Positions 49,586 through 59,375 of a DNA stretch of 64,000 bases are shown here, piece by piece. This DNA is from Candidatus Rifleibacterium amylolyticum (lineage in GTDB: Bacteria; Muiribacteriota; Ozemobacteria; Ozemobacterales; Ozemobacteraceae): NCBI GenBank assembly GCA_009917695.1, contig JAACJG010000002.1:124001-188000 (forward strand). Direction: 5' to 3'. Position 1 is the first letter of the stretch. Every line of letters starts with the position of its first letter. The position numbers were made by a program, and so were the translations under genes. The notes beneath the pieces were generated by a model, which was given only the letters and a program-made list of their open reading frames with translations, did no database searches and was not told where the DNA came from.

Positions 49586-49708
49586 TTTCGCATCCAGTCA
49601 GATCAGCATAAAATAAGGCCAAACCGCAAAACTGCCCCGCCCAAGATAATTTATCTTATCGACATTTGCAAACAAAGCGTTTTAAGATATCTTTGCTCTC
49701 TCTTCCTC

Positions 49709-49858
49709 GTAATCGTAATCGTAATCGTAATCGTTATCGTTATCGGTATCGCTATCGGGATCGTCTTTGTCTTTGTCTTTGTCTTTGTCTTTGTCTTCGT
49801 CTTTGTCTTTGTCTTTGTCTTTGTCTTTGTCTTCGTCTTCGTCTTCGTCTTCGTTATT
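49709..49858 (+). repeat. 25-unit degenerate hexanucleotide array before the 5'-nucleotidase gene
   Basis: Unit order from 49709: GTAATC x4, GTTATC x2, GGTATC, GCTATC, GGGATC, GTCTTT x5, GTCTTC, GTCTTT x5, GTCTTC x4, GTTATT. The period is exactly six over 150 bases. The array ends six bases before the ATG at 49865. A TTGCAA (49666-49671), 16 bases, TATCTT (49688-49693) promoter just before it would make the array the mRNA leader. In the frame of the nucleotidase the array is open and would read Val-Ile then Val-Phe repeats, but no ATG, GTG or TTG lies upstream in that frame. Confidence 0.9.
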
Positions 49859-49864
49859 GCCCCT

Positions 49865-51838
49865 ATGCCAACTGAATATCACAAATCCGCCTGGCTCCAT
49901 CTACTTCTGCTGCTTGTCATGCTCTCCAGCCCGACTGCCGCAGAAGTTCTGCACTTCACGGTTCTGCACACCAGCGACGAGCATTCAAGCCTCATGCCAG
50001 TGCCGCTTGTCGATTACCGCCCCGGCGAACACGACCGCGCCACCGGCGGCTTCGCGCGCCTTGCCACGCTAATCAGCAGAATTCGCTCGCAGAAACCCGA
50101 CATTCCGGCTCTGCTGCTTTCTTCGGGCGATTTCATCGGCGGCACACCCTTTTCATGGCTGATTCTAAACGACAGTTCGCCAGAACTCGAGATAATGCAC
50201 CATCTCGGTTACAATGCTACAACCATCGGCAACCATGAATTCGACTATGGTTCGCATGGCCTCGCAAATTATTTCATTCGCCTGCAGACACAGGGAAAAT
50301 TGCTGCCAGTAATCGTGTCAAATCTGCGCGCCCCGCCGGACCACCCGATAAATCAGGCCGGCATCAAAGAAAACCATATTCTCGAACTGGCTAACGGCTT
50401 GAAAACAGGTATATTCGCGCTGCTCGGCCGTGGTGCCCACCGTGTTTCGCCGGACGCAAAACCGCTCGACTTCGTCGAACAGCATCAGTGCGCGCGCGAA
50501 CAGGTTGCAAAGCTTAAAAAGGCTGGTGCCAATGTAATAATAGCGCTGACCCACGCCGGCATCGCCGAAGACCGTGAACTGGCCGGATCTGTTGCCGGCA
50601 TCGATCTGATTCTCGGTGGCCACGAACACCTTCAGTTGCCTGCACCCGAAAAGGCAGGCAACACCTTGATAATGCACAGCGGTTACTACACCCAGAATCT
50701 CGGCCAGCTCGACCTCGCCTGGGATACCGATTCACAGAAGCTCGACCTGCTAAACCGCCAGACCGGTGCGCCGTTTCTGCACAAAATAGACTCAAACATT
50801 CCCGAAGACCCTCAAACTGCCGCAATCATCGAAGATTATCGTCGTCAGCTCAACGACTTTGTCGCCAGCTTCACCGCCGGTGAATTCGCTGATATTTCGC
50901 AGATTGTTGCCAGATCAGAGTTTGCGCTACCTCGCAATCTGCCTTTCAACGAATCGACGATCGGTAACTTTGTCACCGATGCCATGCGCATCGAAACCGA
51001 AAAACTGCTCGGAGAGAGAGTCGATTTTGCCTTGCAGGCCAACGGCACCATACGCGGCGGACTTCTTGTCGGCAGCGACCGCCATAATGCCGGCAAAATA
51101 ACGCTCTTTGACCTGATCAGCATAAGTTCTATGGGCAACGGACCTGATAAACTGCCAGGTTATCCGCTGGTGTCGCTTTATTTAACCGGCGCCGAGATTC
51201 ATCGATTGCTCGAAATCGCTGTGATTCTGCCACAACTCTGGGGTGATATATACTTTCTACAGTTCTCGGGTCTGCGCTATACCTATGACCCGGCGCGAAC
51301 CTTCTGGATGCGCCAGGTTCCTTTGCTCAAGCTGCCCTGGCCCTCCGGCAAAAGTGTCATTTCGGCCGAGCGACTGGTAAAACTCGGAGAGACCGCCGAC
51401 CAAGATGTCTACGAGCCTTTCCCAGACGATGGAAGCAAACTCTATCATCTGGTAACCACGCATTATCTGGCAAACTACCTGCCCATGGTTGGCACCCGCC
51501 TGCCCAAACTCAAATTGACGGTGAAAAACAAACATGGCAAAGAAGTGAATCTTGACGACAGCATAATTCGCGAAAACACCCGCGAATTCAAGGTATGGGA
51601 GGCCACCGCCCGCTATATCGCTTCATTCGACCAGAGCGCTGATAACTTGCCGACCATTCCCACTCGCTACCAGAAAATAGAAGGACGCATCAACACAGGT
51701 CAGGGCGAATGGCTCTGGTTCTGGCCGCTGCTGACCGCAATCATTATCCTTGTTGTCCTGTTAATGCTTGCCATCAGCTTAATCCGCCGCCGAAAAAAAT
51801 CAGGCCACCCCGTCGGGCAGCCTGATCTATCGAATTGA
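49865..51838 (+). CDS. Exported 5'-nucleotidase (UshA-like metallophosphoesterase), membrane-anchored at the C-terminus
   Basis: A 657-residue protein. A signal peptide spans about 10-27. The metallophosphoesterase domain shows HTSDEHS, SSGDFIGGT, TTIGNHEFDYG, ALTHAGI and LGGHEHL, the full dimetal site. The 5'-nucleotidase C-terminal domain follows (NLPFNESTIGNFVTDAMR, ALQANGTIRGGLLVG). A membrane helix near 625-645 (LLTAIIILVVLLMLAISL) and basic RRRKK end the protein. It should hydrolyse nucleotides or other phosphate esters outside the inner membrane. No Shine-Dalgarno site precedes the ATG; the hexamer array occupies that place, so the array may control its translation. Confidence 0.92.
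   Translation: MPTEYHKSAWLHLLLLLVMLSSPTAAEVLHFTVLHTSDEHSSLMPVPLVDYRPGEHDRATGGFARLATLISRIRSQKPDIPALLLSSGDFIGGTPFSWLILNDSSPELEIMHHLGYNATTIGNHEFDYGSHGLANYFIRLQTQGKLLPVIVSNLRAPPDHPINQAGIKENHILELANGLKTGIFALLGRGAHRVSPDAKPLDFVEQHQCAREQVAKLKKAGANVIIALTHAGIAEDRELAGSVAGIDLILGGHEHLQLPAPEKAGNTLIMHSGYYTQNLGQLDLAWDTDSQKLDLLNRQTGAPFLHKIDSNIPEDPQTAAIIEDYRRQLNDFVASFTAGEFADISQIVARSEFALPRNLPFNESTIGNFVTDAMRIETEKLLGERVDFALQANGTIRGGLLVGSDRHNAGKITLFDLISISSMGNGPDKLPGYPLVSLYLTGAEIHRLLEIAVILPQLWGDIYFLQFSGLRYTYDPARTFWMRQVPLLKLPWPSGKSVISAERLVKLGETADQDVYEPFPDDGSKLYHLVTTHYLANYLPMVGTRLPKLKLTVKNKHGKEVNLDDSIIRENTREFKVWEATARYIASFDQSADNLPTIPTRYQKIEGRINTGQGEWLWFWPLLTAIIILVVLLMLAISLIRRRKKSGHPVGQPDLSN
51793..51826 (-). terminator. 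Intrinsic terminator of the alcohol dehydrogenase, inside the 5'-nucleotidase 3' end
   Basis: Stem ATCAGGC (51799-51805) with GCCTGAT (51820-51826) and an inner GC stem. Seven T follow on the minus strand (A-run 51793-51799). It lies within the last codons of the convergent nucleotidase gene. Confidence 0.75.
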
Positions 51839-55187: not shown

Positions 55188-56276
55188 TCAGTCCCAGACG
55201 ATGCCTTCGACATGATCGATGCCGAGGCCGGCTGATTCTGAGAGTTTGAGCCAGGGGCCTTCGATTTCGGCGCCGCCGATTACCGGGTCTTCGCTGCACA
55301 GCGACGGGCTGTCGAGATCGCAGCGCGTGATAATGCTGCGGGCGCAGGCAAGATGCACCGCAGCAGTGACACTGATTTTGCTTTCCATCATACAGCCGAG
55401 AAAACACTCGACATTGTGCATTTCGGCGAGAGCACAGATGCGCAGGGCGCCGCGCAGGCCACCGGTTTTCATAAGCTTGATATTGATATAGTCGGCAGCT
55501 CCCATGGCAATGATCTTTTCGGCGTCAAGCGCCGAGAATACCGCTTCGTCAGCCAGAACAGGGGTGTCGATGCTTTCTTTGACCTGTTTGAGACCAGCGA
55601 GGTCATGCGCCAGAACCGGCTGTTCGAGCAGATCTATATTAAAGCTGCCGGCCTCGATTTCACGCATGATTCGCACTGCCTCGCGGGCTGTCCAGCCCTG
55701 ATTTGCGTCAAGGCGCAGTTTTATACCAGCACCGACCGCATCTCGAACGGCTTCGATACGCGCTATATCTACGTCTGACTGCAACCCCACCTTGAGTTTG
55801 AGGATTCTGAAGCCGCGTGAAACTGCAATTTTGCTGTCTTCAGCCATTTCTTCAGGGCTGTTGACACTTATGGTCAGGTCGGTTTCGATCTTGTTCCGAT
55901 AACCGCCGAGAAGTCTATAGACAGGAATATTGTATAGCCGGCCGAACAGATCAAAAATAGCCATTTCTACTGCGGCTTTAGCACTGGTGTTCTTGACCAG
56001 GGCGCCGTCGAGAGTATTGAGGGTGTCTTCAAGATTGGCAACCTCTTTGCCCTTGAGCCTGGGAAGTATGAACTCATGAATTGCGCCGCGCACACTGCCC
56101 TGCGACTCGCCAGTTATCGGCCCGGTCGGGTGCGCCTCGCCGATTCCCGTTACTCCGGCGTCGGTATCAACAGCAACCACGATCGAAGCAATATGATCGA
56201 TCGTTCGCAAAGCCGTTTTAAAAGGTGTGCGCAGCGGAATCGAAAGAACTCCGGTTCTGATATTGGTAATCTTCAT
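55188..56276 (-). CDS. Dipeptide epimerase (L-Ala-D/L-Glu epimerase type, enolase superfamily)
   Basis: A 362-residue protein. The ATG at 56276 follows GGGGGGGAAC. The acid/base lysines are in LKLKVGL and KLMKTGG. Metal ligands are in DANQGW, LLEQPV and ADEAVF. The C-terminal C-D-L-D-S-P matches the D-x-D motif that binds the dipeptide amino group in Ala-Glu epimerases. The enzyme converts L-Ala-D-Glu from murein to L-Ala-L-Glu. It lies downstream of an NlpC/P60 endopeptidase that could release this dipeptide, but 195 bp and a hexamer array separate them. It ends eight bases from the convergent Tim44-like gene. Confidence 0.88.
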   Translation of the reverse strand: MKITNIRTGVLSIPLRTPFKTALRTIDHIASIVVAVDTDAGVTGIGEAHPTGPITGESQGSVRGAIHEFILPRLKGKEVANLEDTLNTLDGALVKNTSAKAAVEMAIFDLFGRLYNIPVYRLLGGYRNKIETDLTISVNSPEEMAEDSKIAVSRGFRILKLKVGLQSDVDIARIEAVRDAVGAGIKLRLDANQGWTAREAVRIMREIEAGSFNIDLLEQPVLAHDLAGLKQVKESIDTPVLADEAVFSALDAEKIIAMGAADYINIKLMKTGGLRGALRICALAEMHNVECFLGCMMESKISVTAAVHLACARSIITRCDLDSPSLCSEDPVIGGAEIEGPWLKLSESAGLGIDHVEGIVWD

Positions 56277-56290
56277 GTTCCCCCCCAATC

Positions 56291-56320
56291 GTTCTCGTAA
56301 TCGTAATCGTAATCGGTATC
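56291..56320. repeat. Five-unit hexanucleotide array upstream of the dipeptide epimerase
   Basis: GTTCTC, GTAATC x3, GGTATC on the plus strand, followed by GATC. It lies on the 5' side of the epimerase ribosome site (minus strand, where it reads GATTAC). It shares the first 12 bases with the gnd leader site at 45012-45023 and the GTAATC...GGTATC order with the array at 49709. Confidence 0.85.
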
Positions 56321-56471
56321 GATCTCTCCATATAAGATCTCACTGAATAATTCCTGTTCTGGGTCGGCTGCTCAGTCGGAATGCTTTTTCTTCAGCGATT
56401 CGCTTCGCTCACAAGCTTACGAAAAAGCAAACCGACTTCGCGCCTGAAATATTCAATGAGCTTTTGTATAG

Positions 56472-57914
56472 CTAATTCTTCCCGCCAGCATCCGGCAACA
56501 CGAACTCACGCGCTGAATAGATGCCTTCCATGTATTTGCGGCCATCTGACAGGTAGGTCACCAGCAGTGGCGTCACAAAAACACAACGGGCGGTTGAGCG
56601 TACAAGATTGCCTTCTGCATCTGGCACTCGAAAACCCGCAAAGTCGTGAATGATGTAATAATCATCGTTGTAGCGCCCAAGATAAAGCATGGCATGGCCG
56701 GCCATATAGATCGGAGTTCCGGCCGGCAGACTGTCGAAAACTGCTTTGCGCTCTTCGAGCGTCATTTCTTTGGTGAATTCATGCATGACACCAACAGCCA
56801 GCTTACCCTGTTCGCCAGAATTGCGCGGCACCAGCACGCCCATGCTGCGATAAATGTCCATGATAAAGGCGCTGCAGTCACGGGTATTGAACATTCCACC
56901 CCAGCCGTAACGCTGGCCGAGAAACTTGAAAGCCTGAGTGATGATGTTTTTTCGGGTCAGTGGCATATAGCCGACACGCACGTCTTCTGAGCGTGCAATC
57001 AGGCCGATTCTGAATTCGAGTTTGCCATCTTCGCCACGCGACGGCAGTTTAACAACATAATTGCCGGCAGGGTGCTGACCATCTATGTTGAATTGAAATT
57101 CAGAGCGGTCGGCAAGCGGAATACGGGCACCCATGTCGAGCTGCAGCTCTGATATCTCAGGGCGCAGCGGGTTGTAGCCGGTGAATACGCCTTTACCGGT
57201 TACGACAAGGAATTTTTCGGCATCGAGATAGTCGAAGAGCTCGCGGCGGCTGGTAAATGCGACATCCTGAGCTGGCAGCCAGGCCCGATAATTGTAGGCC
57301 TGAGCGAAAAGCCATTTGCCGTCGCGGCTGGCATGCAGCACCGCCAAGGGCTCTGCCGGGTATAGAGCTGTTTCGATGAACATGTCACTTTCGAAGTCGT
57401 CGGGTTCTGAAAATACGCGGTCATAAGTTGGAAAAGCCCGCATTTCCGTGCGTTTAACTGTGATAGCGAACTGCACTTCGGTAAGACTTCTGATATTATC
57501 GATATTCAAAAGATCTTCGAGCGCAACGTAATACTCATCGCTGACTTCTTCGCCCTTGAGATAGCGCTTTTTCTGGGGGCGCGCGCTGGCTTTTTCGATC
57601 GACTGCCGCAACTGTTCACCAGCCATGGCCGACGGAAAATGGCGAAGATCCATGAGCATTTCACATTCGGCGAAACCTTTGCGATTATAGCGTTCGATCT
57701 CGTCACTGGTCATAATTATCTGATCCTGGTCTGCCACATTCTGCAGCCAGAATTCCGGAAACAGCATTTCATCACTTACACCGGGAATATTCAGATCGAA
57801 CTGCACGAAAACTTCACCTCTGTCAGAACATTGCGAATATAGCGGATGACTGCAGAAAACACCAGCGAGAAAGACGACAAAAAAAACACTGCGAAACTGT
57901 TTGAATGCCTGCAT
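56472..57914 (-). CDS. Exported NlpC/P60 peptidoglycan endopeptidase with SH3-like domains (YkfC type)
   Basis: A 480-residue protein with a Sec signal (about 8-27). The middle (about 145-315) has two SH3b-like domains, including TEMRAFPTYDRVFSE and YRAWLPAQDVAF. The NlpC/P60 domain (about 320-470) has the catalytic cysteine in TRDCSAF (C347) and histidines in AGHAMLYLG (H407) and IIHDF (H423). YkfC-type enzymes cut between D-Glu and diaminopimelate in murein peptides and need a free L-Ala, releasing L-Ala-D-Glu. It lies next to a dipeptide epimerase and a DUF819 membrane protein. The ribosome site GGAG is about 11 bases from the ATG. Confidence 0.88.
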   Translation of the reverse strand: MQAFKQFRSVFFVVFLAGVFCSHPLYSQCSDRGEVFVQFDLNIPGVSDEMLFPEFWLQNVADQDQIIMTSDEIERYNRKGFAECEMLMDLRHFPSAMAGEQLRQSIEKASARPQKKRYLKGEEVSDEYYVALEDLLNIDNIRSLTEVQFAITVKRTEMRAFPTYDRVFSEPDDFESDMFIETALYPAEPLAVLHASRDGKWLFAQAYNYRAWLPAQDVAFTSRRELFDYLDAEKFLVVTGKGVFTGYNPLRPEISELQLDMGARIPLADRSEFQFNIDGQHPAGNYVVKLPSRGEDGKLEFRIGLIARSEDVRVGYMPLTRKNIITQAFKFLGQRYGWGGMFNTRDCSAFIMDIYRSMGVLVPRNSGEQGKLAVGVMHEFTKEMTLEERKAVFDSLPAGTPIYMAGHAMLYLGRYNDDYYIIHDFAGFRVPDAEGNLVRSTARCVFVTPLLVTYLSDGRKYMEGIYSAREFVLPDAGGKN

Positions 57915-57933
57915 TATGTTTCATACTCCAGAT

Positions 57934-59091
57934 TCAGATCATCGAAAGAATTTTGCCAACCAGCAACCCGCCGCCGGTGCCGATTACGTAACCCAGCATA
58001 CCCATCAGAACACCAACCGGCACCAGCACTTCGCTGTAAGCAGCTGCCAGAATAGGCGCCGATGCTACCCCGCCAATATTGGCCAGACTTGCTACGCCGC
58101 AGGTGAACAGGTCCAGCTTGAAAAGACGCGCAATAAGAGCCAGAAGCACAGCATGCACCAGCAGGATGACAAAACCGCAGAAAATATAGAAAGGTGCCTG
58201 CGACAGTTCGGCGAAATTGGCGCGCGACCCGATCAGCGCAACGATAAGGTAAAGCATCAGACTCGCGAGCGGCGAGATTCCCGCCACCTTGCCGAGAGGT
58301 GTCATAGCAGCAATAATGCCGACGACTGTCGTGAGAATGACTGTCCAGCTGTATGTAGAGATGAAAGCGCTTGTCGGAAGCATCGGCGCGACATATTGTG
58401 CCAGAGCTGCCACTGCAAAAGCGCTTCCGAGCAGCAGAATCAGGTCAGAAAAGCTCATGTTCTGCGGGCGATCACCGTGATCGGCCATCAGGCTGGCACC
58501 GACTTCGTCGATCTGGCTGGTGTCGGCTTTGGTCCAGTGGTTGAAGTGCTTTGCATAAGGCACAACTGCCAGCAGCAGCATAACCCAGACCGCGTAGTTG
58601 ATCGAGTCCATCATCAGCGTATAGCCCATCTGCGAGTCGCTGACGCCAAGCGCGAGCTGAATAGCCGCCATATTACCGGTGCCGCCCATCCAGGAGCCGG
58701 AAAGGGCCGCGAAGGTTTTCCAGGTATGCGGTTCAAAATGGCTTTTAAAAAGGAAATAAGTCACGACGAAGCCGGCGCCGATAGTCACCGAAGCCGAAAA
58801 AAAGCCAAGCAGCATGCGGGGCCCGAGCCTGAAGATCTTTTTGAGGTCGCAGTGCAGCAGCATCAGAAAGATCATTACCGGCAGAACGTTGTTTTTGAGC
58901 TGAGTGTAGTAAAAATTGATTTCGTCGGTTTTCTTCCAGAGACCGAGCGTAGAGAAGGTCATTACTGCGAAGTAAAGTACGACGATTCCCGGCACGTAAT
59001 CGAAAAATTTGCGGTATTTTTTGTCGAGCTGCACTATTACTGCGGCTATGAACAGCAGAACCGCGACATAAGCAAAGCCGCTTTCAATCAT
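57934..59091 (-). CDS. DUF819 family integral membrane protein
   Basis: A 385-residue protein with about eleven membrane helices. The ATG at 59091 has GGGAGAG just upstream. Signatures resembling DUF819 (Bacillus YjcL) are GSWMGGTGNMAAIQLALG and MDSINYAVWVMLL in the first half, and ANIGGVASAPILAAAY near the end; the two GG-x-x-N/A motifs suggest an inverted-repeat transporter fold. Function in the family is not established. It lies 19 bases before the NlpC/P60 gene on the same strand, which suggests it could carry murein-derived peptides or amino acids. Confidence 0.82.
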   Translation of the reverse strand: MIESGFAYVAVLLFIAAVIVQLDKKYRKFFDYVPGIVVLYFAVMTFSTLGLWKKTDEINFYYTQLKNNVLPVMIFLMLLHCDLKKIFRLGPRMLLGFFSASVTIGAGFVVTYFLFKSHFEPHTWKTFAALSGSWMGGTGNMAAIQLALGVSDSQMGYTLMMDSINYAVWVMLLLAVVPYAKHFNHWTKADTSQIDEVGASLMADHGDRPQNMSFSDLILLLGSAFAVAALAQYVAPMLPTSAFISTYSWTVILTTVVGIIAAMTPLGKVAGISPLASLMLYLIVALIGSRANFAELSQAPFYIFCGFVILLVHAVLLALIARLFKLDLFTCGVASLANIGGVASAPILAAAYSEVLVPVGVLMGMLGYVIGTGGGLLVGKILSMI

Positions 59092-59375
59092 TATTCTCTC
59101 CCTCTGCGCCGCCAGACCGTTGGTTCGCACTCATTACAGTTCATCAGCGGCGGATTTCGTATGCAAAACAAGATACCACATGCACAAAATTTTGTACGCA
59201 GCTTTCTAAAAATCGCTATCGTTCTTTGCTGTAACACAATCGCCAACTCTTAACATTCCCACTCTGTGCCATTAGCCGACTACCACCAGCTGCCATTGTG
59301 TCGAGCCAGACTTCGGACAGCAATTAATGTTACAATGTGTCTAATCTTGATTTTCCCGCAAGAGAGGTATTGATT

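Follow-up and report, generated by a model that had tools for sequence, protein, structure and literature searches.

A DUF819 membrane protein as a candidate importer of the murein dipeptide L-Ala-D-Glu

We analyzed a stretch of 64,000 nucleotides from Candidatus Rifleibacterium amylolyticum (contig JAACJG010000002.1, positions 124,001 to 188,000), referred to below as the window, in which a gene for a DUF819 (PF05684) membrane protein lies in a row with genes for an NlpC/P60 endopeptidase and a dipeptide epimerase, all on the minus strand. The open reading frames (ORFs) and the Pfam scores agree with the initial annotation on this arrangement. Our results favor, with somewhat better than even confidence, the view that the three genes form a murein-peptide scavenging unit in which the DUF819 protein imports L-Ala-D-Glu, in place of a peptide ATP-binding cassette (ABC) importer. 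The endopeptidase appears to be exported and the epimerase cytosolic, so that an importer is the part the pathway lacks, and the repeated linkage of DUF819 to wall-peptide enzymes therefore makes it a probable importer of a wall-derived dipeptide. We infer import, substrate, direction, and coupling ion from this linkage and a predicted fold; the order of the cuts is inferred as well.

The three genes and their products

The DUF819 gene (57934–59091) is transcribed first and encodes 385 residues from the ATG at 59091, where its homologues begin; the ORF caller had chosen a GTG at 59130. A gap of 19 bases, with GGAG preceding the ATG, leads to the gene for the SH3b-NlpC/P60 endopeptidase (56472–57914; 480 residues), and about 195 bases separate the latter from the epimerase gene (55188–56276). 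The epimerase ORF was called from a TTG at 56288, but its start is probably the ATG at 56276, because the alignment to the PDB starts only at residue 5 when the ORF is read from the TTG. Scanning the region for promoter- or terminator-like sites gave five of each, compared with 3.3 and 4.8, respectively, in shuffled sequence, and these sites were not used.

The DUF819 protein, the only polytopic one of the three, belongs clearly to its family, scoring 354.2 bits against a cut-off of 27 over profile positions 2–378 of 379. A sequence search of the PDB returned no solved relative. Its AlphaFold model (predicted local distance difference test 89.2, predicted TM score 0.85) matched CitS (Z 25.5, 357 residues) and AspT (Z 25.1, 346 residues) over nearly the full chain, and Foldseek also returned CitS; Na+/H+ antiporters fitted less well, with Z of about 13 or below among the matches listed. 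The model thus predicts the reentrant (elevator) fold of the CPA/AT clan, consistent with an earlier placement of DUF819 in that clan (PMC8396727). CitS, a Na+/citrate symporter, and AspT, an Asp:Ala antiporter, both handle acidic substrates (citrate; Asp/Ala), but their identity to the DUF819 protein is only 12–14% in structural alignments. The initial annotation had proposed that DUF819 transports the released peptide; the predicted fold of a carboxylate or amino-acid elevator transporter speaks for the transporter part. Across all aligned groups, Asn-140, Asp-162, and Ser-335 are nearly invariant, and Thr-138, Gln-145, Ser-163, and Asp-327 are specific to the clade of the window.

The endopeptidase carries SH3_6 (54.9 bits) and NLPC_P60 (38.2 bits) domains. 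Its N terminus, basic and then hydrophobic, resembles a Sec signal, and related proteins have plainer signals, some with a lipoprotein-like cysteine; all signal peptides were assessed by eye. The closest solved match is DvLysin (PDB entry 3m1u; E 8.4e-25, residues 150–439), and YkfC (3h41) matches weakly (E 4e-7). DvLysin consists of a c-clip, two SH3b domains, and an NlpC/P60 domain; Pfam reported SH3_6 and NLPC_P60 in the window protein, but not the c-clip. The family alignment shows a catalytic Cys-His-His set in the motifs DCS, GH, and IxHD. In YkfC, Asp-256 recognizes the free N-terminal L-Ala, according to the accessible part of the report (PMC2954226). This position is occupied by an asparagine in the window protein and in 35 of the 36 related rows that cover it, and we therefore rejected an assignment as a YkfC-type enzyme, on which the initial annotation had based the release of L-Ala-D-Glu. 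The best solved relatives, DvLysin and PnpA, are described as cleaving γ-D-Glu-meso-diaminopimelic acid (mDAP) in muropeptides; in the portion of that paper available, they appear without an epimerase or DUF819 (PMC7860986). By homology, the window enzyme probably cuts the γ-D-Glu-mDAP bond as well. The asparagine suggests that its substrates probably include peptides not yet released from the glycan, so that an amidase step would probably be needed.

The third gene product, a member of the enolase superfamily, has MR_MLE_C (178.3 bits) and MR_MLE_N (78.3 bits) domains, and its closest solved protein is the Bacillus subtilis L-Ala-D/L-Glu epimerase (1jpm/1tkk; E 4.5e-101). Alignment with this enzyme showed that the catalytic lysines, the metal ligands, and the DxD pair are kept. 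The protein scored below the curated cut-offs of both NCBIfam models for L-Ala-D/L-Glu epimerases (248 against 500 and 109.5 against 343), both of which are narrow; we therefore name it a dipeptide epimerase, likely of L-Ala-D/L-Glu specificity. It has no signal-like N terminus by eye, in contrast to the endopeptidase, as the initial annotation had it.

Immediately 5' of the epimerase start, hexanucleotide repeats occupy window positions 56287–56321, and the equivalent gap of a relative holds a longer hexanucleotide array (L039:12636–12910). Two further arrays (49707–49764 and 49763–49851, one with about 15 GTCTTT copies) precede a 5'-nucleotidase-like gene at 49865. Such arrays could be length-variable expression switches.

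Conservation of the gene neighborhood

DUF819 is present in 12 of 39 genomes surveyed in the phylum. An NlpC/P60 match adjoins it in 11 of these (in G023, a match of only 34 residues); in the remaining genome, G010, its neighbor is the epimerase. An epimerase orthologue lies on the same contig at no more than 3.6 kb in nine of the 12; it is on a separate contig in G026 and G027, and the phylum survey showed none in G023. The three-gene association in the phylum exceeds chance.

We then extended the comparison with a scan of 84,980 species genomes, which gave 426 confirmed relatives of the window DUF819; the best 80 were analyzed, and all counts out of 80 below refer to them, with neighbors defined as lying within 5 kb. 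Profiles for the counts were derived from clusters found in these loci and eight others, and the window proteins alone as queries gave the same linkage picture. The ORFs were taken by a longest-ORF rule, which is unreliable in GC-rich loci, and were backed by six-frame and tblastn searches; phylum labels are those of the record titles. An epimerase gene lies near DUF819 in 49 of the 80 loci (47 on the same strand, two on the opposite strand) and an NlpC/P60 gene in 31; one or both occur in 59, and both in 21. One locus, L118, is linked solely through diverged NlpC/P60-like matches on the opposite strand, and without it the count is 58. Among the 21 loci with neither gene, the available sequence extends beyond 5 kb on both sides only in L091, L095, and L104.

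The linked loci come from some seven phyla (Riflebacteria, Bacillota, Thermodesulfobacteriota, Spirochaetota, Campylobacterota, Fusobacteriota, and Pseudomonadota) and differ in gene order, strand, and accessory genes, the Paraglaciecola arrangements including divergent ones. On a DUF819 tree, the linkage label changes nine times, compared with a mean of 36.8 after shuffling. The clade's deepest branches carry the linkage, and in one Campylobacterota subclade it has largely been lost (13 of 14 rows). This was a quick tree, from which L119–L126 were left out and two rows of fewer than 300 residues dropped (113 to 111); L042 and L169 are absent, and long branches were flagged among the distant rows. 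Three bins titled Methylomirabilis, Lutibacter, and WWE3 (L044, L064, and L114) carry DUF819 proteins that group with those of Riflebacteria, Clostridia, and Campylobacterota, and these bins are probably mislabelled or mixed. We also considered that epimerases without a neighboring DUF819 might have another transporter next to them. This idea found no support, as 16 such loci, together with L119 and L120, mostly have no adjacent polytopic transporter.

Accessory genes recur at several loci. Amidase_2 genes stand next to the DUF819 or the epimerase gene in L043, L044, L053, L119, and L121, which are of the Riflebacteria type, and in L099 (Woeseiaceae); the window's genome has such a gene, 51% identical, on another contig. 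In the alteromonad loci L074, L075, L082, and L110, DUF819 and NlpC/P60 are found amid S66, NamZ, MurQ, NagA, a BadF-type kinase, and an SSF transporter, apparently as complete murein-use islands. Clostridia loci add PepV- or PepD-type M20 dipeptidases, a class A-like serine hydrolase, and DUF3870. A pathway that turns murein into free amino acids and sugars would call for accessory genes of this kind.

Locus L217, from the Bacillota genome G495, provides the plainest example, with DUF3870, DUF819, epimerase, and NlpC/P60 genes in one run. Its NlpC/P60 protein has a signal-like N terminus, an RDS motif, and the aspartate characteristic of YkfC, and its best solved match is Bacillus cereus YkfC (E 2.6e-130), the crystal of which is reported to have contained L-Ala-γ-D-Glu (PMC2954226). 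By analogy, DUF819 would occupy here the place of B. cereus oppA. The L217 DUF819 protein shares 40% identity with that of the window and is about 30 residues shorter in the alignment, a gap that could reflect either a deletion or an error in the assembly.

DUF3870 itself (PF12986; about 110 residues) was found in 19 of the 80 loci (for example, L061:4192–4527), and in L159 and L217. In Clostridia, a spirochaete, a Fusobacterium, and another Bacillota genome it adjoins the genes for DUF819 and the epimerase, and it may act in their pathway as a soluble component or a regulator. At L179, an AstE/AspA-type deacylase gene (PF24827; L179:8194–9174) lies 23 bases from a DUF819 gene whose branch arises close to the base of the linked clade; the deacylase might substitute for the peptidase or the epimerase.

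Proposed pathway and alternative explanations

According to our model, the NlpC/P60 enzyme and an amidase, which would free the stem from N-acetylmuramic acid, would release L-Ala-γ-D-Glu outside the cell. The DUF819 protein would carry this acidic dipeptide across the membrane by an elevator movement, probably coupled to Na+ or H+. In the cytosol, the epimerase would convert L-Ala-D-Glu into L-Ala-L-Glu, which ordinary dipeptidases would then hydrolyze.

The order of an exported endopeptidase, an imported dipeptide, and a cytosolic epimerase is already known, and DUF819 as the import step is the new part. The YkfB/YkfC-OppA system of B. cereus and the dpp-ykfABCD genes of B. subtilis likewise combine an NlpC/P60 endopeptidase (exported or cytosolic), a cytosolic L-Ala-D/L-Glu epimerase, and a peptide importer; for B. 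cereus, extracellular breakdown and import of L-Ala-D-Glu have been proposed, with an adjoining oppA gene (PMC2954226, as far as accessible). In both organisms the importer is an ABC system, whereas here we propose a single-gene secondary transporter, and the DvLysin-like endopeptidase of the window is unlike their YkfC. The accessible portions of the open-licence literature contained no link between DUF819 and either the epimerase or L-Ala-D-Glu transport. Our proposal would fill in the import step where the endopeptidase is exported, a step for which peptide ABC transporters usually receive the credit, and would give a widespread family a specific, testable substrate in one well defined clade. 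If it is true, murein dipeptides can be scavenged by a single-gene secondary transporter, which points to others for D-Ala-D-Ala and dipeptides of mixed chirality.

Several observations weigh against this proposal. In two genomes of the phylum, G011 and G012, the NlpC/P60-epimerase pair is retained although DUF819 gave no match, and therefore another importer can serve. The window's own genome encodes four SBP_bac_5 proteins, possible parts of a peptide ABC importer, and no S66 carboxypeptidase was found in it; the window endopeptidase lacks the YkfC aspartate. In the unlinked Campylobacterota subclade, five of seven genomes (G310, G311, G313, G315, and G316) show no epimerase match, and two (G312 and G314) do. 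Finally, distant DUF819 genes mostly have no murein neighbors, the epimerase being present in two of 33 distant loci (L159 and L167).

The last point, together with the shared ancestry of the linked loci on the tree, is what would be expected if the neighborhood reflected descent or hitch-hiking and DUF819 acted outside murein-peptide use. We regard this as very improbable, because the neighbor counts and the tree already contradict it: the linkage has been kept over about seven phyla despite changing order, strand, and accessory genes, and outside the clade DUF819 is paired with M15 (L169) and M19 (L213, L214, and L218) peptidases. The M15 pairing also occurs in meningococci (PMC12671195, as far as accessible).

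Import of another product, such as mDAP, mDAP-D-Ala, free glutamate or alanine, or a longer stem peptide, is a more serious alternative, which we nevertheless judge unlikely. NlpC/P60 cleavage also frees an mDAP-containing piece, AspT moves Asp and Ala with the same fold, genes resembling diaminopimelate decarboxylase (cluster 13) lie near DUF819 in seven loci, and certain loci carry NlpC/P60 without an adjacent epimerase. However, the commonest partner of DUF819, and often the sole one, is an epimerase that acts on dipeptides and would be needless in a cluster devoted to free amino acids, and Paraglaciecola without an adjacent epimerase has a YcjG/DgcA-like one elsewhere. It is improbable, moreover, that DUF819 is an exporter or exchanger, for instance of an amino acid or cation made or needed in peptide use, in the manner of the Asp/Ala exchange by AspT. 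The fold is common to AspT and Na+/H+ antiporters, and decarboxylases dependent on pyridoxal phosphate (PLP) adjoin some distant DUF819-like genes, but no decarboxylase recurs in the neighbor clusters of the clade, and an exported endopeptidase with a cytosolic epimerase leaves an importer as the gap in the pathway. Import of L-Ala-D-Glu thus remains the reading we prefer for this clade.

DUF819 outside the clade

The initial annotation had suggested a survey of DUF819 neighbors and expected that a transport role would give the family a function. The murein link is strong within the window's clade, but the broader expectation did not hold. In an even sample of bacteria, DUF819 was found in 35 of 289 genomes, and in the 29 places outside the phylum the epimerase adjoins it in one (L167) and an M15 gene in another (L169); the 33 distant loci are these 29 plus five plasmid matches, less L190, where the profile left DUF819 unlabelled. 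We therefore confine our claim to one clade and reject DUF819 as a general murein protein.

For Bacillota, 12 of the 14 genomes with a match were viewed with wide flanks, in addition to G214; G451, below the cut-off, was left out. Among these 12 places, M19 dipeptidase genes occur in three (L213, L214, and L218), an M20 dipeptidase gene in L212, and the epimerase with YkfC in L217; the remaining seven have no M19, M20, epimerase, or YkfC neighbor. In G214 (L169), the M15 gene adjoins a distant DUF819 of 28% identity. This recalls the meningococcal M15-DUF819 pair, in which the partner of DUF819 comes from a peptidase family with D-Ala-D-Ala enzymes among its members; the accessible part of that report mentions no epimerase or NlpC/P60 and proposes no DUF819 function (PMC12671195). 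S9 peptidase genes adjoin DUF819 in L161 and L164.

These pairings hint at a dipeptide theme across the family, an uneven one, most distant members having no such neighbor. We tentatively suggest, at less than even confidence, that the DUF819 family consists of elevator-type secondary transporters that import dipeptides, above all those containing a D-residue. Each branch would be paired with processing enzymes of its own: the epimerase and NlpC/P60 would act on L-Ala-D-Glu, M15 enzymes on D-Ala-D-Ala, M19 enzymes on mixed dipeptides, and S9 enzymes on others. If true, this would be a further peptide-transporter fold, different from those of the ABC, POT, and AmpG types.

Very distant DUF819-like genes adjoin PLP-dependent decarboxylase genes at three unrelated loci (L172:5526–6962, L189:4912–6222, and L220:4603–5964), and in L189 and L190 a gene that looks TSUP-like by eye lies between or near them. 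The AspT gene adjoins a decarboxylase gene, and by analogy these pairings recall a decarboxylation exchange of the AspT type. Finally, land plants are reported to carry L-Ala-D/L-Glu epimerase genes of bacterial origin (PMC3605383) and also DUF819 genes (PMC6121227 and PMC9460107).

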